Assembly (NCBI RefSeq): GCF_000743945.1
Contig: NZ_CP009238.1
Coordinates: 62,001 to 126,000, forward strand
Length of the DNA stretch: 64,000 nucleotides
Source: Basilea psittacipulmonis DSM 24701
GTDB taxonomy: Bacteria; Pseudomonadota; Gammaproteobacteria; Burkholderiales; Burkholderiaceae_B
Reading direction: 5' to 3'
Positions 2,449-63,628 of this stretch are shown piece after piece. The translations under genes and the position numbers were made by a program. A model generated the notes under the pieces. The model was not told where the DNA came from. It did no database searches and worked only from the letters and a program-made list of their open reading frames with translations. How positions within the stretch are numbered: the first letter of the stretch is position 1; each line of letters starts with the position of its first letter.

Positions 2449-3093
2449 ATGAAATTATTATCGTTAGATTCGTCTTTGGAAAAGAAGACGGTTTTTTGGC
2501 TGTGTTTTTGGCATATTGTTGTCATTATTAGTAGCAATTATTTGGTTCAATTCCCTTTCAGAATCGGCCCGTATCACACGACTTGGGGTGCATTCACTTT
2601 TCCATTTATCTTTTTAACGACTGATTTGACGGTGCGTTTGGTCGGTCGTGATATTGCACGTCGGATCATTTTTATGGCGATGGTGCCGTCGTGGTTGATT
2701 TCGTATTTGATTTCAGTTTGGTTTCATGATGGGCAATGGCAGGGTTGGTCAGCATTGAGTGAATTTCATTCTTTTGCTTTCCGCATTGCGTTTGCAAGTT
2801 TTGCTGCTTATGTAACGGGACAATTATTAGATATTTACGTATTTAATCGTTTAAGACAGTTAAAGTCTTGGTGGGTGGCTCCTTCGGCTTCGACAATCGC
2901 GGGCAATGCTTTGGATACAGTGGTTTTCTTTGCGGTAGCTTTCTATGCATCCAGTGATCCCTATATGGCGGCACATTGGGTGGATATCGCGTGGGTAGAT
3001 TACGTCTGGAAAATCGTGATTAGTGGCTTGTTGTTTTTGCCCGCTTATGGTGTGTTATTGAAGTTTTTGATGCGTCAATTAAAGAGCAAATAA
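2449..3093 (+). CDS. yhhQ: queuosine precursor transporter (7-cyano-7-deazaguanine/preQ0 importer)
   Basis: This 214-residue integral membrane protein has about six membrane segments and YhhQ-family landmarks: an acidic/polar cluster after the third hydrophobic stretch (FLTTDLTVRLVGRD) and the conserved APSASTIAGNALDT segment near residue 143. YhhQ proteins import queuosine precursors for tRNA modification. A preQ1-I riboswitch overlaps its ribosome binding site. The same window contains queF (12985-13443), which converts preQ0 to preQ1. It is a single gene, followed by a long tandem repeat. Confidence 0.93.
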   Translation: MKLLSLDSSLEKKTVFWLCFWHIVVIISSNYLVQFPFRIGPYHTTWGAFTFPFIFLTTDLTVRLVGRDIARRIIFMAMVPSWLISYLISVWFHDGQWQGWSALSEFHSFAFRIAFASFAAYVTGQLLDIYVFNRLRQLKSWWVAPSASTIAGNALDTVVFFAVAFYASSDPYMAAHWVDIAWVDYVWKIVISGLLFLPAYGVLLKFLMRQLKSK

Positions 3094-3672
3094 GTCAGCA
3101 TCACGGTTTAACGGTAACGATCTGCAATAATCGCCTATGAATCAAAGCAGTCTAAAATCAGAGGCTGACCCAATCATGTCAATCAGGATATGAAAAGGGC
3201 TGTTTACCTAATCGTGTCAAAGTGGTTGTATATTGGCAATTGGTGAGGCTGTTGGAAGTTCAATGAATAAGTCACCGTCACGGTTTAACGGCAACGATCT
3301 GCAATGATCGTCTATGAATTAAGGCAGTCTAAAATCAGAGGTTGACGACTAATCATGTCAATCAGGATATGAAAGGGCTGTTTACCTAATCGTGTCAAAG
3401 TGGTTGTATATTGGCGATTGGTGAGGTTGTTGGAAGTTCAATGAATAAGTCACCATCACGGTTTAACGGCAACGATCTGCAATGATCGTCTATGAATTAA
3501 GGCAGTCTAAAATCAGAGGTTGACGACTAATCATGTCAATCAGGATATGAAAGGGCTGTTTACCTAATCGTGTCAAAGAGGTTGTATATTGGCAATTGGT
3601 GAGGCTGTTGGAAGTTCAATGAATAAGTCACCGTCACGGTTTAACGGCAACGATCTGCAACGATCGCTGGGT
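3093..3672 (+). repeat. 178-bp tandem repeat, about 3.25 copies
   Basis: The string CGGTTTAACGG recurs at 3104, 3281, 3459 and 3637, giving spacings of 177, 178 and 178 bp. Each unit contains a small inverted repeat (ACGATC-6 nt-GATCGT in copies 2 and 3) and two related words of the form CTAATCRTGTCAA. The array begins at the yhhQ stop codon and fills most of the 777-bp gap before the ornithine cyclodeaminase gene. There is no credible ORF in it. Confidence 0.95.
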
Positions 3673-8032: not shown

Positions 8033-9970
8033 ATGATGGACAAAAATAAGGTAACTCAAAAAACGATTAATGTTAGAGAGCTTTTGGATTCAAGGCCGAT
8101 TGGAAAGTATCAGTTTTTTATTGTGCTGATGTGCTTTTTGGTTGTATTGATGGATGGTTTTGATGTAGTGATTATGGGGTTTGTGGGTCCGGAATTGAAA
8201 GCGTCGTGGAATTGGAGTAATGATGATTTGGCTCCCGTGTTGAGTGCGGCGTTATTTGGGCTAGCAATTGGGGCGATGATGGCAGGCCCTATTGCTGATA
8301 AATTGGGTCGAAGAAAAGTATTGTGTGCCTGTGTTTTGTTGTTTGGTTTGTTTACGTTGTTGGTCGTGACGGCTACAGATAAGGTGCATTTTATTATTTA
8401 TCGTTTTATTGCAGGATTGGCGATGGGCGGTATTATGCCGATGGCGGCGACTCTGGTTAATGAATACTCACCTCGTCGTAAGAGTTCATTTTTGGTAACA
8501 ATCGTATTTGCTGGCTTTACGGTCGGTGCGGCAGGAGGTGGTTTTTTAGCAAAGTGGTTGGTGCCTCATTTAGGATGGGAAAGTGTGTTTGTTTTGGGTG
8601 GGATATTGCCTATTTTGTTGAGTGTGTTGATGTATCTGGTAATGCCTGAGTCGTTGGCATTTTTGGTGCTCAAGGGCGGATCGCATGAACGCATTCTTTG
8701 TATTGTTAAAAAGTGCGTGCCAGAGATAGAAACAGAAAATGTAAAATTTGTTGTGCAAACAGAACGAGAGGAAACCAGTCAGTCAAAAATTGAATTAAAT
8801 AAAAACGCCAATCAACAAAGCACCACCGAAACACAGTCAAATAGCACTTCTCAGCAATTGGGTGTTCAAGGTCAGATAAACGCTGTATCTGAAAATGTGA
8901 TGCGGAACGATGGTCAGCACCAACAAACCATCTCCGAAACACAGCTAAACAGCACTTCTCAGCAATTGGGTGTTCAAAGTCAGATAAACGCTGTGTCTGA
9001 AAATGTGATGTTGAATGATGGTCAGTGCCAAAAAACGAACACCGAAACACAGCTAAACAGCACTTCTCAGCAATTGGGTGTTCAAAGTCAGATAAATGCT
9101 GTATCTGAAAATGTAATGTGGAACGATGGTCAGCACCAACAAACCAACACGGAAACACAGCTAAACAGCACTTCACAGCGATTAGGTGTTCAAAGTCAGA
9201 TAAACGCTGTATCTGAAAATGTGATGCGGAACGATGGTCAGCACCAACAAACCATCTCCGAAACACAGCTAAACAGCACTTCTCAGCAGTCGGGTGACGG
9301 TGATCGGATAAATAGTCATTTGAGTGATCAAGTTGGAACGCAGGTAGATAAACGTTTTTCGTCAAGTCATCACAATGCGATTAGAACGGTATTAAGTTCT
9401 GTTTATTTGTTGGGCAGTTTGACGTTGTGGTGTGGTTATTTCTTGCATTTATTCTTGGTTTATTTATTGGGTAGTTGGATGCCGACGATGATAAAAGATT
9501 CGGGGATGAGTTATGAGTATGCGGCGGTGATTTCAGCGACATTCCAATTAGGCGGACCTTTGGGATCAATTCTACAAGGTTGGTTAATGGATAAGTTTGA
9601 GGAACATAAGGTCATCATTGCGGCTTATTTGATTGGGGCCTTGTCGTTGGTGTTGATGAGCTATTTGGGCCATCAATACGTGTTGTTGTGTTTGGTGGCT
9701 TTTGTGATGGGAGCTAGTTTGAATGGCGGAGGCACGGCGTTCAATGCTTTGTCCAGTAATTTCTTCCCCTTGTCGGCTCGGGCAACGGGCAATAGCTGGA
9801 TGCATGGTATTGGGCGTTTAGGTGCGATTTTATCGGCATTTTCGGGAGCATGGATGTTGAACGCGGGACTTGATTTTTCACAAGTGGCGTTTATATTGAG
9901 CGTCCCTGCACTCATGATTGTGGTGTTATTGTTTGTGAAATCTTGGTATTATCAAAAATGTTTGCCTTGA
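8033..9970 (+). CDS. MFS aromatic acid:H+ symporter (AAHS type) with inserted repeat domain
   Basis: The 645-residue protein is an AAHS-type transporter (family members are usually about 450 residues). The N-terminal half has LDSRPIGKYQ, VVLMDGFDVVIMGFVGP and motif A GPIADKLGRRKVL. The C-terminal half has YLLGSWMPTMIKDSGMS and GWLMDKFEEHKV. These are fingerprints of benzoate/4-hydroxybenzoate/shikimate-type symporters. About 190 residues of the central cytoplasmic loop are extra and contain a Q/N/S/T-rich 36-residue tandem repeat (DNA 8819-9290). Both membrane halves are intact and in frame, so the protein could be functional. ATG 8033 or 8036 are both possible. The pair with the upstream AroE-like enzyme suggests a quinate/shikimate-like substrate. 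Confidence 0.85.
   Translation: MMDKNKVTQKTINVRELLDSRPIGKYQFFIVLMCFLVVLMDGFDVVIMGFVGPELKASWNWSNDDLAPVLSAALFGLAIGAMMAGPIADKLGRRKVLCACVLLFGLFTLLVVTATDKVHFIIYRFIAGLAMGGIMPMAATLVNEYSPRRKSSFLVTIVFAGFTVGAAGGGFLAKWLVPHLGWESVFVLGGILPILLSVLMYLVMPESLAFLVLKGGSHERILCIVKKCVPEIETENVKFVVQTEREETSQSKIELNKNANQQSTTETQSNSTSQQLGVQGQINAVSENVMRNDGQHQQTISETQLNSTSQQLGVQSQINAVSENVMLNDGQCQKTNTETQLNSTSQQLGVQSQINAVSENVMWNDGQHQQTNTETQLNSTSQRLGVQSQINAVSENVMRNDGQHQQTISETQLNSTSQQSGDGDRINSHLSDQVGTQVDKRFSSSHHNAIRTVLSSVYLLGSLTLWCGYFLHLFLVYLLGSWMPTMIKDSGMSYEYAAVISATFQLGGPLGSILQGWLMDKFEEHKVIIAAYLIGALSLVLMSYLGHQYVLLCLVAFVMGASLNGGGTAFNALSSNFFPLSARATGNSWMHGIGRLGAILSAFSGAWMLNAGLDFSQVAFILSVPALMIVVLLFVKSWYYQKCLP
8819..9290 (+). repeat. 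in-frame 108-bp tandem repeat inside the AAHS transporter
   Basis: Four full units and one partial unit start at about 8819, 8927, 9035, 9143 and 9251, each encoding 36 residues around TSQQLGVQSQINAVSENVM. The units differ at only a few codons (R/L/W before NDGQ, H or C after it). Being a multiple of three, copy-number change would keep the frame. The antisense strand is also open here, which is a by-product of the repeat. Confidence 0.95.
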
Positions 9971-30565: not shown

Positions 30566-31027
30566 GGTCAATTCAGAAAATTTAAAAAAGGAAGAGTATT
30601 TTATTATAAATGAATGTGTTAAGGGGTTTGTGCTGATTGTGGGAAGTAAGAAGCGTGCTACTACGCAAGTAAATGTACGTATTAAGAGGGGTGGAGATAC
30701 GTCAGTAGATCTACGTAATCATATGGTTAAAAAGATACGTTCGTTTAGCGTGCTACTACGCAAGTAAATGTACGTATTAAGAGGGGTGGAGATACGTCGG
30801 TAGATCTACGTAATCGTATGGTTAAAAAGATATGTTCGTTTAGCGTGCTACTACGCAAGTAAATGTACGTACTTAAATGAGGTAGAGGGATTGCCGTCAC
30901 AAATATTGGATTCATCTATATACGGTGTTTTTAGAGGTTTTTGGACGTGATAAACTGATAAAATGTAGGGTTTGACTTGCGTGTTTGAACAAGAAATTTT
31001 GATTTTTATTCCATGGATGTGAGATAG
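30566..31027. other. intergenic region before lgt
   Basis: Contains a 95-bp tandem repeat (separate entry) and, after it, the lgt promoter region (TTGACT near 30972 is a possible -35). A 67-codon plus-strand frame at 30564 runs into the repeat and is not convincing as a gene. Confidence 0.45.
30652..30870 (+). repeat. 95-bp tandem repeat, about 2.3 copies
   Basis: AGCGTGCTACTACGCAAGTA recurs at 30652, 30747 and 30842, exactly 95 bp apart, with only single-base changes between copies. Each unit is rich in ACGT words and holds the palindrome GTAGATCTAC. Confidence 0.95.
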
Positions 31028-44734: not shown

Positions 44735-45310
44735 AAATCGTTCAACCTCAGCATTCATCAGCGTTTTCATTGCGGTTATCAGAATCATCATCGATGTTAA
44801 GTCACCTATTAAGTTACCATAATACTCACGTTGATGAGAGGGTTAACGTTCCAACTTCACTATTCATCAGCGTTTTCATTGCGGTTATCTGAATCATCAT
44901 CGATGTTAAATCACTTATTAAGTTATCACAATTTCACGTTGATGAGAGGGTTAACGTTCCAACCTCAGCATTCATCAGCGTTTTCATTGCGGTTATCTGA
45001 ATCATTATCGATGTTAAATCACCTATTAAGTTACCATAATACTCATGTTGATGAGAGGGTTAACGTTCAAACCTCAGCATTCATCATCGTTTTCATTGCG
45101 GTTGTCTGAATCATCATCGATGTTAAATTACCTATTAAGTTACCATAATACTCACGTTGATGAGAGGGTTAATGCTCCAACCTCAGTATTCATCGGCGTT
45201 TTCATTGTGGTGATTTGAATCATCATCGATGTTAAGTCACCTATTAAGTTACCACAATATTCACATTGATGAGAGTGTTGATGCTCCAACCTCAGCATTC
45301 ATCAGCGTTT
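44735..45310. repeat. 109-bp tandem repeat, about five copies, derived from the GT2 3' end
   Basis: TTGATGAGAG recurs at 44831, 44939, 45048, 45157 and 45266 (spacing 108, 109, 109, 109). Each unit contains CCTCAGCATTCATCAGCGTT, which is also the last codons and stop of the GT2 gene on the minus strand. The array thus runs out of the GT2 coding end into the spacer before the deacetylase gene. Confidence 0.93.
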
Positions 45311-46299
45311 TCATAATGGTTGTGTGAATCGTTATCTGGATGATCGGTGTTTTGTGGTTCAATGATTTTGTTAATGACGTAAAGCGGACGGCCTTTGACT
45401 TCGTTATAGATATTGCCAATGTACTCGCCAATCACGCCTAAAGAAATGAGCTGAATGCCTGATAAAAACATCATCCCCGCCGCTAAGGTCGGCCAACCAG
45501 GTAAATGATTGCGAGAGGACAGTGTATCTATGATGATGTATATCCCATAGAGAATTGAGCAAAGCGAAATGATCATGCCGATGTGTGACACCCAACGCAA
45601 AGGACGTGAGGAAAAGGCCGTGATGCCGACTAGTGCTAATTCAAATAATCGTGAAAAATTGAATTTGCTTTCGCCTTTGATTCTGTCTAATGCTTGAAAA
45701 GCGATGTATTCTGTTTTAAAGCCAGCCCAAGCATACAGGCCTTTCATAAAACGTTTTTTCTCGGGCAATTGGTTTAATACGTTGACGACTTTTTTTCTCA
45801 TCATTCGGAAGTCGGCTGCATTGGCTGGGATTTCAAAATGTTGAGCGTCGGCTACTAAACGATAGAATAAACGTTTGCTGGTGCGTGTCAGCCAAGATTC
45901 GTGATGACGGGTGTGTTGAACACCTGCAACCACATCCGCTCCCGCTTTTATGAGGTCAACCATTTGAGGAATTAAGTTGAGGGGATGTTGTCCATCAGGA
46001 TCCATTAACAACACCATGTCGCCTTGTGCTTGTTCCAGTCCTGCACTGATAGCGGCTTCTTTGCCAAAGTTTCTGGAAAATTGGATAAGTTTGCTGTGAT
46101 AATCGTTAGGCAAAACGTATTGTGAAAAATGTTGAAAAACAGATTCGGTGCGATCGGTGCTTCCATCGTCAACAATGATGATTTCATGAGGGCCAGCGAT
46201 GTTTTGAAGACACTGGCTCAGCAAGGGCAAAAATATTTCCAATGAGTCCGCTTCATTGTAAGCAGGAAGAATAACGGAGATCGCAAAGTGATGATTCAT
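45292..46299 (-). CDS. GT2 glycosyltransferase, polyprenyl-phosphate sugar synthase type
   Basis: 335 residues from the ATG at 46299 (MNHHFAISVILPAYNE). A cytoplasmic GT-A domain has IIIVDDGSTDRT and the metal motif LMDPDGQHP. Two C-terminal membrane helices (WVSHIGMIISLCSILYGIY; MMFLSGIQLISLGVIGEYIG) match the DPM1/ArnC/GtrB type that loads sugars onto undecaprenyl phosphate. The C-terminal tail (HNHYENADEC) lies inside the repeat array and is probably variable. Context suggests that it makes Und-P-N-acetylhexosamine for the deacetylase and GT39 enzyme. Confidence 0.88.
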   Translation of the reverse strand: MNHHFAISVILPAYNEADSLEIFLPLLSQCLQNIAGPHEIIIVDDGSTDRTESVFQHFSQYVLPNDYHSKLIQFSRNFGKEAAISAGLEQAQGDMVLLMDPDGQHPLNLIPQMVDLIKAGADVVAGVQHTRHHESWLTRTSKRLFYRLVADAQHFEIPANAADFRMMRKKVVNVLNQLPEKKRFMKGLYAWAGFKTEYIAFQALDRIKGESKFNFSRLFELALVGITAFSSRPLRWVSHIGMIISLCSILYGIYIIIDTLSSRNHLPGWPTLAAGMMFLSGIQLISLGVIGEYIGNIYNEVKGRPLYVINKIIEPQNTDHPDNDSHNHYENADEC

Positions 46300-54700: not shown

Positions 54701-56555
54701 GAAAACACAAGCTGGTGCGGATAGTTATACTCAGACAGGTTCAAACTCTATGTTTGAGGGTGTGCTAGATATGGATAAAGGCGATGATGTAGCAACTTTC
54801 GAAGATGGATACATTATCGGCAAGATCTATATGGGTGAAGGTAGTGATACGGTTTCGATTGCGTCTAATGTTGATACTACTGGTTTAACCGTCTTAGATG
54901 GTGGCGATGATTATGGTACTGCAGATGGCTGGGTAGATACGCTAATCTTAAACGGTGAGCGTCAGATCTTCACGGATAATCAAGGAACGACCGCTACTTC
55001 TCGTGCTGGCAATACAGGAATAAACCTATTGGATTGGGAAAACATCGATTTGGGTGATGGCACGACAGAATCTGTTGCAACCTTAGCAGGTAACTTAGAG
55101 GCTGAAACAGTCAACATTGCAAATAATGCTACCTTGAAGATGAGTGAAGATATTAATTCTCCAACGATCAAGGGTAGTGTTGTCAACTCAGGTACGATTG
55201 ACCTAACAGGTAATAAACAAACAGGCGATACCCTTACTATCGATGGTAACTATACAGGTAATAGCGGCAGTACGATTAAACTTAACTTTGTACTCAATGA
55301 TGACAAAGAGTTTGCAGCTTCTGACAATGTCGTTATTACGGGTACCGCTTCTGGTGAATCAACAGTAGAGTTACTTGGAGAAGATAATACGGCTGTCGTG
55401 TTAGACGGTAATGCGGAAGAAGTTAGCTTGGCAACAAGCAAATTACCGATTATCTCTGTTCAAGGAAATAGTGACTTCCAAGTGACTGACTTTAAACTAA
55501 CAGGTACATTAGAGACAACAGGTGCATCTGATGTTAAGTTGGTAAGAAACGGTGCAAATAACTACTACTGGGGACCTAGTTATGCTTGGGTAACTAACCG
55601 AGTGGGTGCAAACGCGACTAACTACTTAGGTATGATTCGCGTCAACCAAGAACAAGGCTTTATGACACTTTCTACGTATCATGAACGCCGTGGCGATAAT
55701 ATTTACACCTATCCAGAAAACAAACAAAGCTGGGGACGTATCTATGGTCGTCATATTTCTCAAGATGGTGCACAGTTTATCGGTTTAGATACAAACTTCT
55801 ATGGTATCCAAATCGGCCATGACTTCCGTATTCGTTATAACGAAAATGGCAGACGTGATCAAACAGGCGTGTACTTTGCTTATAACCAAGCATCAGCTGA
55901 TTTCATGAACTATACACGCGATGATCCTAAGACTGGTCGCGGTACGGCTAAGAACTTCAGCTTAGGTATTACTCATACTCGTCTATACGCGAATATGACA
56001 TACATTGACTTAGTTGCTCAAGTTTCGCATACACGCAACAAATATAAACCGATTGCTAAAGAGGCGAGAGGTCAAGACACTTGGGGTTATGCGTTATCTG
56101 CTGAATACGGTCGTCCATTCGTGATTAATGAGCGTCGTGCTTTGGATAATGCTTATACTACTCGTTGGACAATTGAACCACAAGCTCAATTAGTGTATCA
56201 GTATATGCACATGAATGATTTCCGTGATGAAACACGTGAAATTGCTACGAATGTCCAACACGCCTTGAGAGGTCGCTTGGGTGCAAGAGCGGTTTACCAT
56301 ACCAATGAGAAAAATACCGTGTATGCAGTGGCTAATATTTGGCATGATTTCTTGAAACCAAGAAAAATGAATATTGGTGAAGATGCGATACGTGAAACTT
56401 ACGCCTCAACATGGGGTGAACTCGGTGTGGGTAGTTCAATGAAGTTTAACCGCAATACCGCTATCTATGGCGATGTACGCTATGAACGTAGTTTATCAGG
56501 TACTAAACGCCATGGTGTGAGAGGTACTGTAGGATTGAGCTACAACTGGAAATAA
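48710..56555 (+). CDS. giant ESPR autotransporter adhesin, frame interrupted at a G7 tract
   Basis: A type Va autotransporter. The ATG at 48710 opens an extended signal peptide (MNRHYKTVWSHARQQW, then SELAKSHSKSSRSS; cleavage after GTAFA). The frame then meets G7 (48877-48883) and stops at 48910. The passenger is open in another frame from before the tract to 56555. With G6 or G9 the two join, giving ~2614 residues (G6) with ECTGGTATITCTGDT after cleavage, as in other members. The passenger is ~2250 residues of degenerate beta-helix repeats (phrases such as TNKGTI, VENTGDI, GIYA), rich in T/N/S/A. The C-terminal beta-barrel runs from about 55720 (SWGRIYGRHIS) to LSYNWK. As read, the gene is phase-OFF. 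Confidence 0.88.
48877..48883 (+). repeat. G7 contingency tract at the signal peptide/passenger junction
   Basis: Seven G directly after TGTAC. Six or nine G would join the signal peptide to the passenger; seven leaves it out of frame by one base. Confidence 0.9.
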
Positions 56556-56586: not shown

Positions 56587-56619
56587 CCTCCCTAGCCCCA
56601 ATACTAGGGAGGTTTTTTT
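56587..56619 (+). terminator. rho-independent terminator after the autotransporter
   Basis: CCTCCCTAG (56587-56595) and CTAGGGAGG (56604-56612) form a perfect 9-bp stem followed by seven T. The T-run touches the first unit of the following 41-bp array. Confidence 0.9.
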
Positions 56620-56829
56620 GTGCACGTGGTGGATCTCATGCACAAAAAATCGCAAAATTTGTGCACGTGGTAGATCTCATGCACAAAAAATCGCAAAATT
56701 TGTGCACGTGGTAGGTCTCATGCACAAAAAATCGCAAAATTTGTGCACGTGGTAGATCTCATGCACAAGAAATCGCAAAATTTGTGCATATGGTAGATCT
56801 CATGCACAAAAAATCGTAAAATTTGTGCA
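56617..56829 (+). repeat. 41-bp palindromic array A, five units plus a half-site
   Basis: GTGCA recurs at 56620, 56661, 56702, 56743, 56784 and 56825, always 41 bp apart. Each unit is TTTGTGCA, 14 nt, TGCACAAA (a perfect 8-bp inverted repeat), then the linker AAATCGCAAAA. The last complete unit has TCGTAAAAT in its linker, which makes a -10-like TAAAAT at 56817-56822. The final half-site ends 28 bases before the Fic start. It looks like an operator array. Confidence 0.92.
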
Positions 56830-56857
56830 TATGAAATGTTGATGAATGAGGTGGATC

Positions 56858-57937
56858 ATGGGGCAGGAGAAAACTTATCAGTTACCTGATTTATTTAATC
56901 TGGGCAATATTGAAAATAAAACTATTTTAAAAGCGTGTAATGTGGCTCATCAAGCACTAGGGGAGCTGAAAGGGGTGGTGCATAGCATGCCAAACCAAAA
57001 TATTTTGCTGACAACATTGCCGATACAAGAAGCAAAGGAAAGTTCTGCCATAGAAAATATTATCACCACCCAAGATGATCTATATAAAAGTAATGCCGAT
57101 AATTTAGAGTTTCCCTCGATTGCCGCGAAAGAGGTGCATCGTTATGGTTTAGCGATGGCAATTGGTTATGAACAGGTTAAGCAACATAAATTAATCACAT
57201 TAAGATTAATTAAAGATGTACAAGAGCGATTAGAGGGAAATAACGCGGGTTTTCGCCAACAAGCGGGTACTGCTTTGATTAATCAACACACTGGGGAAAC
57301 GGTTTACACGCCCCCACAATTACCGTCTGAAATTGAAAATGGTATGGCAAAACTGACTGAGTTTATCAATAATTCAGAACAAATTGATTATGATCCATTG
57401 GTTAAAATGGCATTAATTCATCATCAGTTTGAAAGTATTCATCCATTTTATGATGGTAATGGTCGAACAGGTCGAATTATCAATATTCTTTACCTTATCC
57501 AACAAGATCTGTTGGAAACCCCTATTTTGTACCTTTCACGTTATATTAATCAGCATAAAGAACAATATTATCGATTAATTCAACAAGTCAGAGATACGCA
57601 AAATTGGGAAGAGTGGATTTTGTTCATACTCCAAGGCATTGCTCAAACAGCGAAACAAACAACCGTATTGATTAATCAAATCAAAGAATTTATGCAAAAA
57701 CATAAGCACCTCATTCGCCGTGAATTACCTAAGATTTACAGTCATGAACTTATCAATAATATTTATCAGTATCCTTATACAAAAATTGATTTTGTTGCCA
57801 GAGACTGTCGTATTCATCGCAATACTGCAAGTAAGTATTTAGAAGAACTGGTCAAACTCGGGGTGCTGAAAAAAGAAAAAATAGGTAAAGATAATTTTTA
57901 TATCAATACCAATTTATTTAATTTGTTGGGGGAGTAA
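56858..57937 (+). CDS. Fic-domain protein with C-terminal winged helix (Fic1)
   Basis: 359 residues from the ATG at 56858, which has GAGGTGG five bases upstream; the in-frame ATG at 56846 lies before this site. The inhibitory helix motif SSAIEN is N-terminal (class II Fic), the catalytic Fic motif HPFYDGNGRTGR is intact, and a winged helix-turn-helix forms the C-terminus (VARDCRIHRNTASKYLEELV). Such proteins AMPylate other proteins, and the DNA-binding domain suggests autoregulation. It follows the 41-bp array A directly. The target is unknown. Confidence 0.9.
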   Translation: MGQEKTYQLPDLFNLGNIENKTILKACNVAHQALGELKGVVHSMPNQNILLTTLPIQEAKESSAIENIITTQDDLYKSNADNLEFPSIAAKEVHRYGLAMAIGYEQVKQHKLITLRLIKDVQERLEGNNAGFRQQAGTALINQHTGETVYTPPQLPSEIENGMAKLTEFINNSEQIDYDPLVKMALIHHQFESIHPFYDGNGRTGRIINILYLIQQDLLETPILYLSRYINQHKEQYYRLIQQVRDTQNWEEWILFILQGIAQTAKQTTVLINQIKEFMQKHKHLIRRELPKIYSHELINNIYQYPYTKIDFVARDCRIHRNTASKYLEELVKLGVLKKEKIGKDNFYINTNLFNLLGE

Positions 57938-58278
57938 GCAAAAACCCACAGCAACAATCGCCATGGGTTTGGGTTGATTAGAAGTAGTCGTTTATCGTTC
58001 CTACTAAGATGATGAGGGTGAGGGCAGCTAGTGACAAGGCGAAAAAAGAACGCTCTTGCCTTAAACATAAATGCACAATCTAGAAAAATGTCGTTGAAAC
58101 AAGTGTTCATAACAGTGTGAAAGACAAATAAGTGGCATGAAACTCACAAAAAACGCGATGTTGTGGTTATTTTTATACACTTTGAATTTGAATTAAAAAA
58201 GGATGTGTGACTAGGCAAATTTTGGCTTTCCAAAGATTTTTGCCTAAAATTCAGCTGAATAATAATCAGATTTATATT
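57938..58278. other. intergenic region between Fic1 and the siderophore receptor
   Basis: About 340 bp with no convincing ORF. ACCCA/TGGGT near 57945-57967 could form a weak hairpin after fic1 but lacks a T-run. The end of the region holds the promoter and Fur box of the receptor gene. Confidence 0.4.
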
Positions 58279-58297
58279 GAGAATAATTATCATTAAT
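58279..58297 (+). promoter_or_regulatory. Fur box of the siderophore receptor gene
   Basis: GAGAATAATTATCATTAAT matches 14 of 19 positions of the Fur consensus and sits 171 bp upstream of the receptor start. It implies iron repression. Confidence 0.75.
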
Positions 58298-58468
58298 AGT
58301 ATCTTTATAAATGTTTCGTTGGTTTGTGAAGCGTTGGGGCCACCTGCTAACGAAGTGGACACAAAGGCAAAAGGCGAGTTTCGGATATGAAACGGATGCA
58401 GGATCGCGTTTTTGCGGTAGTAAATGTTCTCTATGACAAACAGGGATAAAGTGGTACAAGGAGTAGGT

Positions 58469-60667
58469 ATGAGGTTGTACAAAACAAAATTATCGGTGGT
58501 GACGTGTTTAGCACTGACTTCTGTGGCATTTGCACAGGAACAAAATGACGTTGAATTAGAAAAAATTGTGGTGACCGCAGAACGCAAGCTCAAGCAGTCT
58601 TTGGGGGTGAGTGAGTTACCTGCCCAAGAGATAGAAAAATCGGCGGTTGTTAATGATGTGTCGGATTTGTTGCGTAAAATGCCGGGGGTGAATTTAACGG
58701 GAAATACCGCAACGGGTCAGCGTGGTAATGCCCGTCAGATCGACATTCGTGGGATGGGGCCTGAGAATACGTTGATTTTGATTGATGGTCGTCCAGTGAC
58801 CTCGCGTCATTCGGTGCGTTATAGTTGGCGTGGTCAAAGGGATACGCGTGGTGATACGAACTGGGTGCCTGTTGAGGATATTGAGTCAGTCGAAGTGCTA
58901 AGAGGTCCAGCGGCTGCCCGTTATGGTTCAGGTTCGATGGGTGGCGTAGTCAATATCACGACAAAGAAAACATCTAAGGTGTTCAAAGGCTCGCTTACCT
59001 ACTATACGAATATTCCTGAAGATGGCGATGAGGGTGGCACAAATCGAGTCGGCTTTAGCGTCTCGGGGCCGATTATTTCGGATACCTTGGCGTTCCGTTT
59101 GTATGGTAATTACAATAAAACTCAGGCGGATGCTTATGATATTAATAGTGGAGTCGTTGTTGGAGGAGCGGATGCTCGTGCTGCGGGTCGTGAGGGCGTG
59201 AGAAATAAAGATATTGCAGGACGATTAAATTGGAAAATCAATGAACATCAATATGTGGATGTGGACGTGAGTTACAGTCGTCAAGGTAATATTTATGCAG
59301 GCGATATTCAGAATACGAGTTTGCATAGCTTGAATAAAGAACTTATTCCAGCTTTGTACAAAGCAGAAACTAATCGTATGTATCGTCAAAGCTATGCCAT
59401 CACCCATCATGGTGATTGGGATTGGGGATCGGTGAGATTAACAGCCCAATATGATCGCACCACAAACAGTCGTTTAAAAGAAGCGTTGACTGGGGGGCCA
59501 GAAGGTAGTATTACGGCTCCTTTTATATATTCTGACAGTATTTTAAAAACGTATCGTACTGCGGCAGAAGTCAGTGTGCCATTTGAATGGGCGGTACCTC
59601 ATGTGGTCACGGTAGGGGCGGAGTTTTCGCATGACAGCTTGGATGATCCCGCTTCGATGAGTCAAACCTTTACTGATAGAGGTCAAACAGCTACATTTAA
59701 GCGATTTGAGGGGGTAAACCGTGGCAAGCAATCACAAAATAGTTTTTCTGTTTTTGTCGAAGATAATATTTCGGTAAGTCGTCCGCTTAGCTTGGTTCCG
59801 GGCTTGCGTTTTGACTATAACAGTCGTTCAGGCGGAGCTTTAAGTCCATCTTTGAATGCCTTTTATAATGTGACACCGACCTTGACGATTAAAGGCGGGG
59901 TCGCACGGGTGTATAAAGCACCTAATTTATATCAAAGTTCAGAGGGGTATTTGCTTTATACCAGAGGCAATGGTTGTCCTTTAAATATTAAGTCAACTCG
60001 ATTACAAAACAATGCTTGCTATTTAATGGGGAATGCAAACTTAAAACCTGAAACCAGCTGGAACAAAGAGTTGGGGTTTGAGTACGATCCAGGTACATGG
60101 AAAGCTTCACTAGCGTACTTCCATAATGATTATCGTAATAAAATCGCTGCGGGAAATACAGTTCTAGAAACCTCAACTAGGTTCTATTTGATTCAATGGG
60201 AGAATATTCCAAAAGCCGTGGTATCAGGCGTAGAGGGAAATATTACCCTTCCTTTGGTGAAAAATACCTTGAATTGGGCGACAAACTTCACTTATATGAT
60301 TGACAGTAAGGATAAATCAACAGGGAATCCTTTGTCGATTATTCCTAAATACACGATCAATACCTTTTTGGATTGGCAGATTAACGATAAATGGGATGCT
60401 CAGTTAAATGCGACTTTCTATGGTCGTCAGAAACCACGTCAATATGTGGAAAATTATATGGAGAACAATAATGGTTTGTCGACAACAGCTGTCGGTGCCT
60501 ATACCTTAGTTGGTGTGAATACGGGTTATGCCTTTAACAAAAATTTCAAAATCCGTGTGGGTGTGTCTAATTTGTTTAACAAAAAGATCTATCGTTCAAA
60601 CGATGGGGCAAATACCTATAACGAACCAGGTCGTGCATACTATGCAAGGGTGACCATGTCCTTTTAA
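58469..60667 (+). CDS. TonB-dependent catecholate siderophore receptor (FepA/BfeA-like)
   Basis: 732 residues from the ATG at 58469, which follows a strong AAGGAG site; upstream in-frame starts lack one. Signal peptide ends SVAFA. The TonB box is EKIVVTAE. The plug domain has DIRGMGPENTLILIDGRPV and SVEVLRGPAAARYGSGSMGG, with WRGQRDTRGDTNWVPVEDIE, a feature of FepA/PirA/BfeA receptors. The 22-strand barrel ends in a terminal phenylalanine (RVTMSF). It probably imports ferric enterobactin-like catecholates; no siderophore synthesis genes are in the window. Confidence 0.9.
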   Translation: MRLYKTKLSVVTCLALTSVAFAQEQNDVELEKIVVTAERKLKQSLGVSELPAQEIEKSAVVNDVSDLLRKMPGVNLTGNTATGQRGNARQIDIRGMGPENTLILIDGRPVTSRHSVRYSWRGQRDTRGDTNWVPVEDIESVEVLRGPAAARYGSGSMGGVVNITTKKTSKVFKGSLTYYTNIPEDGDEGGTNRVGFSVSGPIISDTLAFRLYGNYNKTQADAYDINSGVVVGGADARAAGREGVRNKDIAGRLNWKINEHQYVDVDVSYSRQGNIYAGDIQNTSLHSLNKELIPALYKAETNRMYRQSYAITHHGDWDWGSVRLTAQYDRTTNSRLKEALTGGPEGSITAPFIYSDSILKTYRTAAEVSVPFEWAVPHVVTVGAEFSHDSLDDPASMSQTFTDRGQTATFKRFEGVNRGKQSQNSFSVFVEDNISVSRPLSLVPGLRFDYNSRSGGALSPSLNAFYNVTPTLTIKGGVARVYKAPNLYQSSEGYLLYTRGNGCPLNIKSTRLQNNACYLMGNANLKPETSWNKELGFEYDPGTWKASLAYFHNDYRNKIAAGNTVLETSTRFYLIQWENIPKAVVSGVEGNITLPLVKNTLNWATNFTYMIDSKDKSTGNPLSIIPKYTINTFLDWQINDKWDAQLNATFYGRQKPRQYVENYMENNNGLSTTAVGAYTLVGVNTGYAFNKNFKIRVGVSNLFNKKIYRSNDGANTYNEPGRAYYARVTMSF

Positions 60668-60696
60668 CCCTTATTAACCTCGAGGCAATGTGCTTT

Positions 60697-60730
60697 ATCC
60701 CTGTCAGATTGATGGCAGGGATATTTTTTT
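60697..60730 (+). terminator. terminator after the siderophore receptor
   Basis: ATCCCTGTCA (60697-60706) pairs with TGGCAGGGAT (60713-60722) with one G-T pair, followed by seven or eight T. Confidence 0.88.
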
Positions 60731-60739
60731 GAGCAAAAA

Positions 60740-60982
60740 ACGTAAAAAGTCGAACTAACGGGTTTGCTTAGTTCGAGAAAACGCAAAAAGTCGAACTAAC
60801 GATGTTTCTTAGTTCGAGAAAACGCAAAAAGTCGAACTAACGAAGTTTCTTAGTTCGAGAAAACGCAAAAAGTCGAACTAACGAAGTTTCTTAGTTCGAG
60901 AAAACGCAAAAAGTCGAACTAACGATGTTGCTTAGTTCGAGAAAACGTAAAAAGTCGAACTAACGGGATTGCTTAGTTCGAG
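60740..60982 (+). repeat. 41-bp palindromic array B, six units
   Basis: TCGAACTAA recurs at 60750, 60791, 60832, 60873, 60914 and 60955, exactly 41 bp apart. Each unit is TCGAACTAA, 9 variable nt, TTAGTTCGA (a perfect 9-bp inverted repeat), then an A-rich linker with AAAACGCAAAA. The last unit runs into GTTTTTTATT and could act as a terminator. It precedes the second Fic gene, with a 294-bp gap. Confidence 0.93.
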
Positions 60983-61276
60983 TTTTTTATTAAAAAAGAG
61001 ATTAAAATGGAAAAAGCAGAGGGTTTTTATTTAGATGCATTGAGTAGAATGTGGACCATCGGGTAATAGCGTCGCAGTCATTATTAGGAAATGTGACACG
61101 TTCACAGTGACATAGCTGTGTTAGTGAAGATAATCTCGCCTAACAAAGGATGCTGCTTTGCTCGGATCATGGTGACATGGCTATGTTGTTGACGATAGTC
61201 GTCAGAAAAAATCATATGAGTAAAAGAGCTTGTGTTTATTGAGATGGCTTTTGCTCAATTATCAGGTGGATAGATC
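60983..61276 (+). other. leader region of the second Fic gene
   Basis: Contains a 19-codon frame at 61007-61066 (MEKAEGFYLDALSRMWTIG) with an AAAGAG-like site, possibly a leader peptide, and a diverged direct repeat (GTGACATAGCTGTGTTAGTG near 61108 and GTGACATGGCTATGTTGTTG near 61172, 64 bp apart). No terminator or clear promoter. Confidence 0.4.
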
Positions 61277-62404
61277 ATGAAAATCGAAGAATTTAAAGCA
61301 GGAACATGGGAAAAACGTTATCAATACGAGAGTTTTGAGCCATCTTTGATTAATACAGAGTGGACATGGGACTCACCAAAGATTCATTTAGCACTGGAGC
61401 GAGCAACGAGAGCGTTGGGAGAGCTGAACGCGTTTTCATTGATTGTGCCAGACGTGGATTTATTTGTTCAAATGCACATCGTTAAAGAAGCCCAAACGTC
61501 TAGTAAGATTGAGGGCACGCAAACACAGATGGACGAAGCTTTGATGTCCAAGGACCTGATTCAGCCTGAAAAACGAGACGATTGGCAGGAAGTGCAAAAC
61601 TATATTCAAGCGATGAATAGTGCGATCGCAGGATTAAGTCGGTTGCCACTTTCTAATCGTTTGTTAAGAGAGACGCATGCGGTATTGGTGTCAGGTGTGC
61701 GAGGACGTGAAAAACAACCAGGTGAGTTTCGCACAAGTCAAAACTGGATTGGCGGATCGAACTTGAATGATGCGGCCTTTGTGCCACCTCATCATGAAGG
61801 ATTGCCTGTGTTGATGCGTGATTTGGAAGAGTTTTGGCATAACGATATGATTCTGGTGCCTCATTTGATTCGGATTGCCATTAGTCATTATCAGTTTGAA
61901 ACTATCCATCCTTTTTTAGATGGGAATGGGCGAATTGGGCGGTTGATGATTCCGTTGTATTTGATGAGTCATGGCGTGCTAGAAAAACCGTCGTTGTATA
62001 TCTCTGACTTTTTCGAGCGTTATCGTAGTAGTTATTACGATGCGTTGATGGCTGTGCGTATGCGTAACGATCTAACGCATTGGGTATTGTTTTTCTTGCA
62101 AGCGGTTGAAGAAACTTCTAAAAAAGGTTGCATGGTGTTTAAAGGGATTTTGAGATTCAGAGAAGAAGCCCAAAGCAAAATTATGAAACTAGGCAGACGT
62201 GCGGAATTAGCTGTACAGCTGTTGAATTTGCTATATCGAAACCCCATACAAACCGCCCAGAATATTGAAACCCATTTAAATATTTCAAAATCGACAGTGA
62301 ATCTTCTGATAAAAGACTTTTTGGATGCGGGATTAATCAAAGAAGTAACAGGTAAAAAAAGAGGACAGGTTTTTGCGATGAATGACTACTTGACGTTGTT
62401 TTAA
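61277..62404 (+). CDS. Fic-domain protein with C-terminal winged helix (Fic2)
   Basis: 375 residues. N-terminal Fic_N-like region (GTWEKRYQYESFEPSLIN), inhibitory motif SSKIEG (class II), catalytic motif HPFLDGNGRIGR, and a C-terminal winged helix (NIETHLNISKSTVNLLIKDF). It differs strongly from Fic1 outside the motifs, so the two are not a recent duplication. Probable AMP transferase with autoregulatory DNA binding. The ATG follows AGGTGGATAGATC. Array B lies upstream. Confidence 0.9.
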   Translation: MKIEEFKAGTWEKRYQYESFEPSLINTEWTWDSPKIHLALERATRALGELNAFSLIVPDVDLFVQMHIVKEAQTSSKIEGTQTQMDEALMSKDLIQPEKRDDWQEVQNYIQAMNSAIAGLSRLPLSNRLLRETHAVLVSGVRGREKQPGEFRTSQNWIGGSNLNDAAFVPPHHEGLPVLMRDLEEFWHNDMILVPHLIRIAISHYQFETIHPFLDGNGRIGRLMIPLYLMSHGVLEKPSLYISDFFERYRSSYYDALMAVRMRNDLTHWVLFFLQAVEETSKKGCMVFKGILRFREEAQSKIMKLGRRAELAVQLLNLLYRNPIQTAQNIETHLNISKSTVNLLIKDFLDAGLIKEVTGKKRGQVFAMNDYLTLF

Positions 62405-62482: not shown

Positions 62483-63520
62483 TCATGCTTGTGGAGATGG
62501 GGTTAATAAATGGGTGGTTTGTTTTTTTGTAAGTTCATACATCACCCGCAAAATCCTTTCTGCAATACGTTTGACTAAAGGCATGCTGACGCTGTTTCCA
62601 GCCTGCATATAAAGTTTGCTATTTGCAATGGGTGGTAAGACAAAATGATTCATGTCATACCCTTGAAAAGCAAAACACTCTTTAGGCGTGAGTTTTCGGA
62701 TGCCGTAGTCATCAAGAAGTAAGGGGACGTTATGTCCACCTGTACCCATATTGGCAGTTAAGGTGGGGCAAAGATTATTTTTATTCTCACGAACATAGAC
62801 TCGTCGCCACTGATATAAGGTGTTTTTCGAGCAGATATGTTCTTTTAGTGTATCGATGTATTTTGAGTGGTCGTAATAAAACTTATCGTCTTGTTTTTCT
62901 GAATCAATAAAGTCATGAATGGTCTTAGTGAGCGGGATTTTCGAGGGAAAAGAAAACTGCTCGTAGTTCAAATGACTTTCTTTATTAAAAGCTACGATAA
63001 AAATACGTTCTCGATTCTGGGGAATATTCGCATATTCAGCCGTGTTCATCACTTGATAGAAAACGTGGTAATTTAGCTTATCCAAAATAGAGAGAATCGT
63101 TTGGAATGTTCGCCCTTTATCATGAGATACTAAGTTCTTCACGTTTTCAAGGAAGATAACTTTAGGACGATGTTTTTCAGCAATCTGTTCAATATCAAAA
63201 AATAAAGTGCCTCGACTATCGGCAAATCCTTTCTGATAACCTGCAATAGAAAAAGCCTGACAAGGAAAACCCGCACAAAGAATATCGAATGTCTCTGGGA
63301 TTTTCGCTTTAGTTTCAGCTAATGTAATATCGCCGTAGGGTAGGATGCCATGGTTAGCAAGGTAGGTTTTCTGTGCATCTTTATCCCATTCGCTACTAAA
63401 AACGCAAGTGCCCCCTAATGCTTTTAAAGCAAAATGAAAGCCTCCTACGCCCGCAAATAAGTCAATAAACGTAAATGCGGCAGCTTGAGTATGAGAATGT
63501 GTTAAATCGCTATTAGACAT
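62483..63520 (-). CDS. C5-cytosine DNA methyltransferase
   Basis: 345 residues from the ATG at 63520 (MSNSDLTHSHTQ). The ordered motifs are all present: I DLFAGVGGF, IV GFPCQAFS (catalytic Cys), VI ENVKNL, VIII QNRERIF, and X GNSVSMP, with the target-recognition region around residues 190-280. No restriction endonuclease gene is adjacent on the visible side, so it may be solitary or its partner may lie beyond the window. The recognition site cannot be read from the sequence. Confidence 0.93.
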   Translation of the reverse strand: MSNSDLTHSHTQAAAFTFIDLFAGVGGFHFALKALGGTCVFSSEWDKDAQKTYLANHGILPYGDITLAETKAKIPETFDILCAGFPCQAFSIAGYQKGFADSRGTLFFDIEQIAEKHRPKVIFLENVKNLVSHDKGRTFQTILSILDKLNYHVFYQVMNTAEYANIPQNRERIFIVAFNKESHLNYEQFSFPSKIPLTKTIHDFIDSEKQDDKFYYDHSKYIDTLKEHICSKNTLYQWRRVYVRENKNNLCPTLTANMGTGGHNVPLLLDDYGIRKLTPKECFAFQGYDMNHFVLPPIANSKLYMQAGNSVSMPLVKRIAERILRVMYELTKKQTTHLLTPSPQA

Positions 63521-63628
63521 AGATAGCCTATCAAATGACTGAGTGGTAATCATAACATTAATCATACATGAAAGTCTTTGAGGCAATCGACCGATTGTAA
63601 GACAATGTCCATGGTGATAATTACGTCA

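Follow-up and report, generated by a model that had tools for sequence, protein, structure and literature searches.

What do two tandem arrays of palindromes do in front of two Fic genes, and why do they share a period of 41 base pairs (bp) while their palindromes differ? The question is raised by a stretch of 64,000 nucleotides from Basilea psittacipulmonis DSM 24701 (contig NZ_CP009238.1, positions 62,001 to 126,000), here called the window, in which array A precedes the gene for Fic A and array B that for Fic B. A preliminary description had proposed that each Fic protein binds its own array and represses itself cooperatively. We find that arrays obeying one family-wide spacing rule stand before genes for SoFic-type proteins in other genomes, that the half-sites of the Fic A subfamily share the frame TGTNNA, and that its two variable letters agree with the recognition helix of the protein encoded behind them. 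As judged from sequence comparison, arrays A and B are very probably the operators of the SoFic-type proteins encoded behind them and would serve cooperative autorepression, each Fic dimer reading its own half-sites.

Two arrays with one period and two palindromes

The elements in question are these.

56617 to 56829, forward strand: array A, made of five 41-bp units plus a half-site; its 11 half-sites, TGTGCA/TGCACA, alternate in orientation with steps of 20 and 21 bp
56846 to 57937, forward strand: Fic A, a class II Fic AMPylase with a SoFic-like C-terminal winged helix
60737 to 60982, forward strand: array B, six 41-bp units; 12 half-sites TTAGTTCGA/TCGAACTAA in alternating orientation
60983 to 61276, forward strand: gap of 294 bp from the end of array B to Fic B, in which weak promoter-like matches stand at 61107-61134 and 61172-61199
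61277 to 62404, forward strand: Fic B, a class II Fic AMPylase with a MarR/HTH_24-like C-terminal winged helix-turn-helix (wHTH)

At a period of 41 bp, Tandem Repeats Finder (TRF) returned array A (5.2 copies with 95% matches) and array B (6.0 copies with 94%) and nothing else in the window, which bears out the exact period first described. The inverted repeats differ between the arrays in arms and spacers, also as described: TTTGTGCA-14-TGCACAAA in array A and TCGAACTAA-9-TTAGTTCGA in array B. The linkers do agree at 10 of 11 bases, but this is weak evidence, as 9 of 300 shuffled unit pairs agreed equally well, and linker similarity was set aside as a sign of common design.

Both proteins carry Fic_N and Fic domains and a C-terminal wHTH-like part in Pfam (PF21248 in Fic A; MarR_2/HTH_24 in Fic B, MarR_2 slightly under the cut-off). 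They are indeed only distantly similar, at about 28% identity. In the translations we read SSAIEN, HPFYDGNGRTGR and the recognition helix IHRNTASKYL for Fic A, and SSKIEG, HPFLDGNGRIGR and the recognition helix ISKSTVNLLI for Fic B; the first two of each set we take to be the inhibitory motif and the FIC motif. Both proteins thus have the class II layout, an inhibitory helix followed by an intact FIC motif and then a C-terminal winged helix. The PADLOC SoFic model PDLC03963 matched them over nearly full length with 378.8 bits (Fic A) and 383.4 bits (Fic B); the NCBIfam SoFic equivalog scored 382.6 and 157.0 bits, both under its 550-bit cut-off. For both proteins we infer an anti-phage function.

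How unusual such arrays are was gauged in 464 kb of the 1.96-Mb genome (23%), comprising the window and 20 pieces of 20 kb each, of which one falls within the window. When this sample was tiled in 2554 stretches, at least three palindromes at a period of 30-41 bp were found nowhere besides the two Fic arrays; other palindrome matches were pairs at scattered distances (one of 42 bp, one of 45 bp) or tandem repeats of other periods. With half-site detectors run on 3065 stretches of the sample, the TGTNNA frame reached a score of at least 3 solely in array A, with three other places at 2.25-2.75. On the same 3065 stretches, a looser chain detector scored 3 or more at three additional places, one being a tandem repeat; at 2.5 or more it marked 35 stretches in all, which overlap and include those of the Fic arrays. 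Arrays of this design standing mostly beside non-Fic genes, the pattern that the preliminary description had named as speaking against its model, were not what the sampled 23% of this genome held.

Arrays of the same geometry before SoFic-type genes

Three samples of loci were assembled from other genomes (L numbers are our locus labels). Sample 1 came from 101 and 369 genomes near that of the window searched with Fic A, one named relative and 60 further stretches, which gave 117 loci, drawn from the more complete and better-scoring rows; dropping L008, L020, L057 and L092 (partial, or with too little upstream DNA) left 113. Sample 2, for which the detection rules were fixed beforehand, came from 398 genomes of the phylum searched with Fic B and 20 further stretches, and holds 48 loci after removal of the window's own locus, L160, one partial row and three loci already seen. 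Sample 3 came from two further searches and holds 47 loci; L204, L207 and L210 were dropped, as were L211 and L213 (two pieces of one locus) in the combined count, and search rows without a locus were left out. For genes with an internal stop, the upstream DNA alone was used. The search covered 300-350 bp upstream of each gene, so that arrays farther away would be missed, as array B of the window would be. The set of spacings was named after the first palindrome scan of sample 1, and the combined detector was defined after all three samples had been seen.

When sample 1 was scanned with 8-letter words between -350 and +15, at least two palindromes matched in 43 of 113 loci; in three of these loci (L015, L043, L051) they lay 117-201 bp apart. 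Among the controls, none of 565 dinucleotide shuffles of such upstream DNA and none of 101 flanks gave two matching palindromes, and 1 of 224 coding stretches did. When the words were shortened to 7 letters and the range was extended for array B, spacings of 30-31, 40-41, 70-72 or 81-82 bp were present in 49 of 113 loci and in 0 of 565 shuffles, and any spacing up to 120 bp in 51 of 113 and 17 of 565. A half-site chain score of at least 3 was reached in 31 of 113 loci versus 0 of 1130 shuffles. Of the 48 loci of sample 2, 12 had a spacing from the set, 14 had any spacing and 10 had a chain scoring at least 2.5; among 480 shuffles the corresponding counts were 1, 5 and 0. Over all three samples, the combined detector found arrays at 106 of 206 SoFic-type loci and in 2 of 206 shuffles.

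The spacing set of the 49 loci makes 41 bp one value of a stepped series. Half-site steps are quantised: along a chain of alternating orientation, every second step keeps to about 18-20 bp (in word coordinates), and the steps between take one of two values, about 21-22 or 10-12 bp, as in <22>18<12>18< (L062 and L063) or >21<20>21<20>10<20>21<20>21< (L074). Palindrome distances of 30-31, 40-41, 70-72 and 81-82 bp follow from such alternation, because one step stays constant while the other is either about 21 bp or, a helical turn less, 11 bp. The shared modular layout with an exchanged palindrome that had been proposed from the two arrays of the window therefore extends beyond them, with the same geometry and other words before SoFic-type genes in 49 of 113, 12 of 48 and, in sample 3, 22 of 47 loci.

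These results bear on one alternative, that tandem repeats of an ordinary intergenic kind, following terminators, or else selfish palindromes happen to lie near Fic genes. Both arrays do start directly after a terminator-like stem-loop, and the window has other tandem repeats. Against chance stand the conservation of the design before SoFic-type genes elsewhere and the 464 kb of this genome with no further array of the kind. Since the array sequences differ, they do not make up a shared repeat family either. We consider this explanation extremely improbable.

Two individual loci may be recorded here. Upstream of the SoFic-type gene of L110 (-207 to -45) lies an 81-bp repeat with three palindromes, about twice the 40-41 bp period. 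At about 17085-17310 of L135 (genome 1617085-1617310), a tandem repeat of alternating 12/9-bp half-sites TAGTGAA/TTCACTA was scored by the chain detector.

The half-site agrees with the recognition helix

In the Fic A subfamily the half-sites follow the frame TGTNNA with a locus-specific NN, which scored at least 2.25 in 22 of 47 loci of sample 1 (1 of 470 shuffles) and, out of sample, in 22 of 47 loci of sample 3 (0 of 470); the 47 include two entries from a single locus, neither with a site. Among the 256 frames of that form TGTNNA ranks first, with 22 loci of sample 3; TATNNA comes next with 13, a rank that probably reflects a shifted reading of TGTATA. Steps in this frame are uniform, mostly > 20-22 (or 11) < and < 19-21 >. 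In the TGTCGA subgroup it is the divergent pair, TNNACA...TGTNNA, whose step stays constant, which makes that pair the probable site of a single dimer. In array A, the linker AAATCGCAAAA had been treated as an element between palindromes; since the period splits into two half-site steps, it probably lies inside a dimer site instead.

The frame is also present on mobile DNA. Of the 267 records of plasmids and phages, the listing covered 44, and sequences were examined for 15 named plasmids and a phage scaffold. Six of these 16 scored at least 2.25 (Marinobacter, Psychrobacter, Persicobacter, Peteryoungia, Hymenobacter and Sulfitobacter; 0 of 320 shuffles), and the other ten, including both cyanobacterial plasmids and Pontibacter, did not.

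An NN could be assigned at a score of at least 2, a threshold that 5 of 470 and 4 of 470 shuffles reached, in 57 of 102 Fic A-type loci. Besides the loci dropped from the samples, this count leaves out L028, L065, L201, L230, L238 and the phage scaffold. Helix classes, which were named after sample 1 and part of sample 3 had been seen, sort the NN as follows.

Class R-[ILMV]: 26 AT, 2 TC, 1 GC
Class [ST]RQ: TA in 8 of 8
Class RP: AA in 3 of 3
Class (K/H/Q/N/E)R(Q/E/H): CG in 16 of 16
Class RN: Fic A of the window alone, GC

With Fic A excluded as the sole member of its class, 53 of the 56 relatives whose array could be read obey the rule, the exceptions being L041, L043 and L197, and these relatives span independent branches and phyla. 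Within sample 3, NN agreed with the class for 20 of 21 readable helices among the 22 loci at 2.25 or more. Five loci sit among relatives of another helix class (L003, L246, L251, L004 and L245), and all five carry the NN of their own helix, L246 and L251 weakly (2.0 and 2.25). In a tree built from the Fic domain and leaving out the wHTH, class and NN changed together on independent, well-supported (starred) branches in 3 of 3 cases for TA, 3 of 3 for AA and 1 of 1 for CG; AT co-changed in 0.9 of 1 on average, and there were no changes the other way. An independent-pairs sign test on this tree had too few pairs to reach 0.05.

Two further cases fall outside this count. One is L028 of Chelonobacter oris (68% identical over the best piece on its contig), which has the half-site of array A, TGTGCA, at a score of 2.5 with mismatches and a 41-bp palindrome spacing; the end of the contig truncates its wHTH. 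The other is SoFic of Shewanella oneidensis: from its helix, AKRQTASVYL, the code predicts a TGTCGA operator.

A different host regulator might instead bind the arrays and control SoFic-type genes, the wHTH of the Fic proteins then having another role, and conserved spacing would be expected under a conserved regulator as well. The half-site, however, varies by locus, follows the Fic recognition helix and differs between A and B within one genome, and CccR, a Fic protein of Yersinia pseudotuberculosis, binds its own promoter (PMC9755527). We regard a separate regulator as very unlikely.

A model for cooperative autorepression

The surroundings of the arrays indicate where such binding would act. 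The flanking features are the following.

ending at 56555, forward strand: large autotransporter-like gene (by eye), upstream of array A
56587 to 56612, forward strand: intrinsic-terminator-like stem-loop with a 9-bp stem and a T tail, 3' of the autotransporter-like gene
58424 to 60667, forward strand: FepA-type TonB receptor, between Fic A and Fic B
60696 to 60723, forward strand: intrinsic-terminator-like stem-loop, 3' of the receptor gene and immediately 5' of array B

All elements run in the same direction, in the order autotransporter-like gene, stem-loop, array A, Fic A, receptor, stem-loop, array B, gap and Fic B. Array A starts within the T-run of the first stem-loop and fills most of the stretch from terminator to start codon. 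With the terminator-like stem-loop upstream and barely room for a ribosome site downstream, the Fic A promoter should lie in the array, and bound Fic would block it. No sigma-70 match of a simple kind was found in the array A region. An alternative start, ATG 56858, has a better ribosome site by eye than the one at 56846.

We infer binding, dimer placement, cooperativity and repression along these lines. The two C-terminal winged helices of a Fic dimer would sit on neighbouring opposite half-sites about two helical turns apart, each half-site in the Fic A subfamily being TGTNNA with a protein-specific NN (GC in array A). Additional dimers could bind next to one another along one face of the helix, at intervals of 41 bp or, where one step is a turn shorter, of 30-31 bp. 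A filled row would then span nearly all the DNA between the terminator and the Fic A start and cover the promoter, giving a cooperative shut-off that would keep a toxic AMPylase scarce. Dimers of SoFic-type proteins have been reported in crystals (SoFic, PMC10628234; EcSofic of Escherichia coli, PMC12249575) and, for EcSofic, also in solution.

An array does precede each Fic gene, as the preliminary description had it, but the two are placed differently: the last half-site of array A lies 16 bp before ATG 56846, and array B ends 294 bp 5' of Fic B. It could therefore be that only array A is an operator and that array B is a relic or serves something besides Fic B, whose promoter would lie in the gap. 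The half-sites of array B begin 527 to 302 bp before Fic B, farther than the arrays detected in relatives, where 300-350 bp were searched; the gap holds the two promoter-like matches; and close Fic B relatives (L140-L143) have no repeated palindromes within 1.2 kb, with two weak chains (2.4 and 2.8) far upstream. On the other side, array B shows the step pattern <16>25<, which recurs in other Fic B-type arrays such as that of L024 (protein 48% identical to Fic B), no open reading frame (ORF) of note lies between it and Fic B, and its units are nearly identical to one another, which argues that it is not decaying. We think this split between the arrays unlikely. The gap itself had no second copy in the genome and no plasmid match.

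The arrays might also do more than repress. They could hold a SoFic toxin in an inactive or deAMPylating row from which phage attack on host DNA or transcription would release it, the array acting as a DNA antitoxin or sensor. Arrays A and B, with 11 and 12 half-sites, are the longest chains in the three samples, seemingly more than simple repression needs, both proteins match the SoFic defence model, and CbFic2 of Coxiella burnetii is proposed to switch from AMPylation to deAMPylation on DNA-induced dimerisation (PMC10628234). Many chains elsewhere, however, have just 3-6 half-sites, and the toxicity of EcSofic requires dimerisation rather than being silenced by it (PMC12249575). Such a second role seems unlikely to us. 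Of slightly lower probability again is the broader proposal that SoFic proteins are a toxin-repressor family with a modular DNA code: residues of the recognition helix would set the dinucleotide within a fixed frame (TGTNNA in one subfamily), and dimers would polymerise on a lattice of half-sites in helical phase. The long lattice found here would then store a silent toxin that phage damage to host DNA could release, operator and sensor being one.

Several observations weigh against autorepression by each Fic protein on its own array. By these detectors 100 of 206 loci are arrayless, and operons explain only a part: where a same-strand ORF of at least 100 codons ends no more than 60 bp before the start, an array was found in 5 of 26 loci, and otherwise in 99 of 178 (Fisher p 6e-4; 2 loci unclassed). 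L029, L030 and L189 share the helix motif HRNTA of Fic A and have no TGTGCA array, L029 sitting behind a long gene. At a score of 2.4, the tentative Fic B-type frame TTANNTN picked up no more than 7 loci of 66 and 8 of 48, and none of 1140 shuffles. When whole words were compared in partial Mantel tests, an effect of the helix beyond relatedness did not stand out in the Fic A subfamily, where 721 of 2000 permutations reached the same level, and was weak in the Fic B subfamily (16 of 2000). For Fic B the case is also weaker because of the 294-bp gap with its promoter-like matches. CbFic2 bound random DNA tightly (PMC10628234), and by analogy some Fic proteins with a helix-turn-helix (HTH) may bind with little sequence preference. 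Finally, the 70.2 Å spacing of the DNA helices of CccR is not transferable, since SoFic (3eqx) pairs differently according to PMC9755527.

Comparison with known Fic proteins

Class II proteins make up 80% of all Fic proteins, and their function and control are almost unexplored (PMC9755527). CccR (PDB 7XUX) binds inverted repeats in its own promoter and represses its own gene (PMC9755527); like Fic A and Fic B it is a class II Fic AMPylase with a C-terminal HTH, and it is dimeric, autorepressing through inverted repeats near its promoter. It is distant in sequence (7xux against Fic A, 1.5e-13; against Fic B, 7.8e-16) and is a secreted effector, with a dimer arrangement unlike that of SoFic per PMC9755527. 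Its operator is one site of two 10-bp boxes 26 bp apart, the text consulted mentioning no array, whereas here there are 11 and 12 half-sites about 20-21 bp apart. In the literature searched, which included few subscription papers and no preprints, CccR is the one Fic-HTH protein with a described operator. The earlier statement that no described Fic system has this arrangement thus needs a narrower form: the array, the spacing rule and the code were not found in that literature, but autorepression through a palindrome is known from CccR (PMC9755527).

SoFic of S. oneidensis (SO_4266, PDB 3eqx) shares family and domains with Fic A and Fic B (3eqx against Fic A, E 1.5e-83), and DNA binding by it had not been shown as of 2023 (PMC10628234). 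Sofic proteins are described as anti-phage toxins, EcSofic being toxic and dimeric (PMC12249575). Unlike the Fic A and Fic B loci, neither SoFic nor EcSofic has an operator or array described in the text consulted. EcSofic has a 47-residue downstream antitoxin, AS1 (PMC12249575); no counterpart was identified in a listing of ORFs, made without comparison to the AS1 sequence, that covered the space 3' of Fic A and gave just short ones of no evident kind. CbFic2 resembles Fic A and Fic B as a class II Fic protein with a C-terminal wHTH and binds DNA (PMC10628234); it was tested on random DNA and acts on histone H3, and the text consulted describes no operator.

The PDB also holds entries named SoFic (9tc4, 9tch, 9tcl, 9tb0), which are known by name and sequence; we know of no paper for them.

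If the proposed role of the arrays is correct, an operator whose spacing and sequence code hold across the family would let binding sites be predicted from sequence for many SoFic-type genes, including S. oneidensis SoFic, whose structure is solved, and putative phage-defence toxins would become testable self-controlled switches. It also raises the question of whether a DNA array represses alone or senses too.

Neighbouring genes and other repeats

Several SoFic-type genes lie near restriction or methylation genes. The arrayless loci L029, L032, L142 and L143 are preceded by type I restriction-like genes (by eye). By annotation, three named plasmids (L243, L244, L247) have a SoFic-type gene beside restriction-modification genes; in Azotobacter such a gene is flanked by a DNA methyltransferase gene and a restriction subunit S gene, in Geminocystis it lies behind a type ISP enzyme, and in Komagataeibacter before a DNA methyltransferase. 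In the window, Fic B is followed on the opposite strand by a C5 cytosine methyltransferase (62483-63586), which scores 413 bits with the PADLOC Type II MTase model. A methyltransferase regulatory domain is present in the large ORF that comes after it; of the few neighbours inspected, none was recognised as a restriction enzyme.

Between the two Fic genes, 5' of the FepA-type receptor gene, the stretch GAGAATAATTATCATTAATAG at 58276-58300 resembles by eye what we take to be the Fur-box motif. Other long tandem repeats of the window, as returned by TRF, lie at 3089-3666, 8813-9296, 30652-30876 and 44739-45330, with periods of 178, 108, 95 and 109/217 bp.

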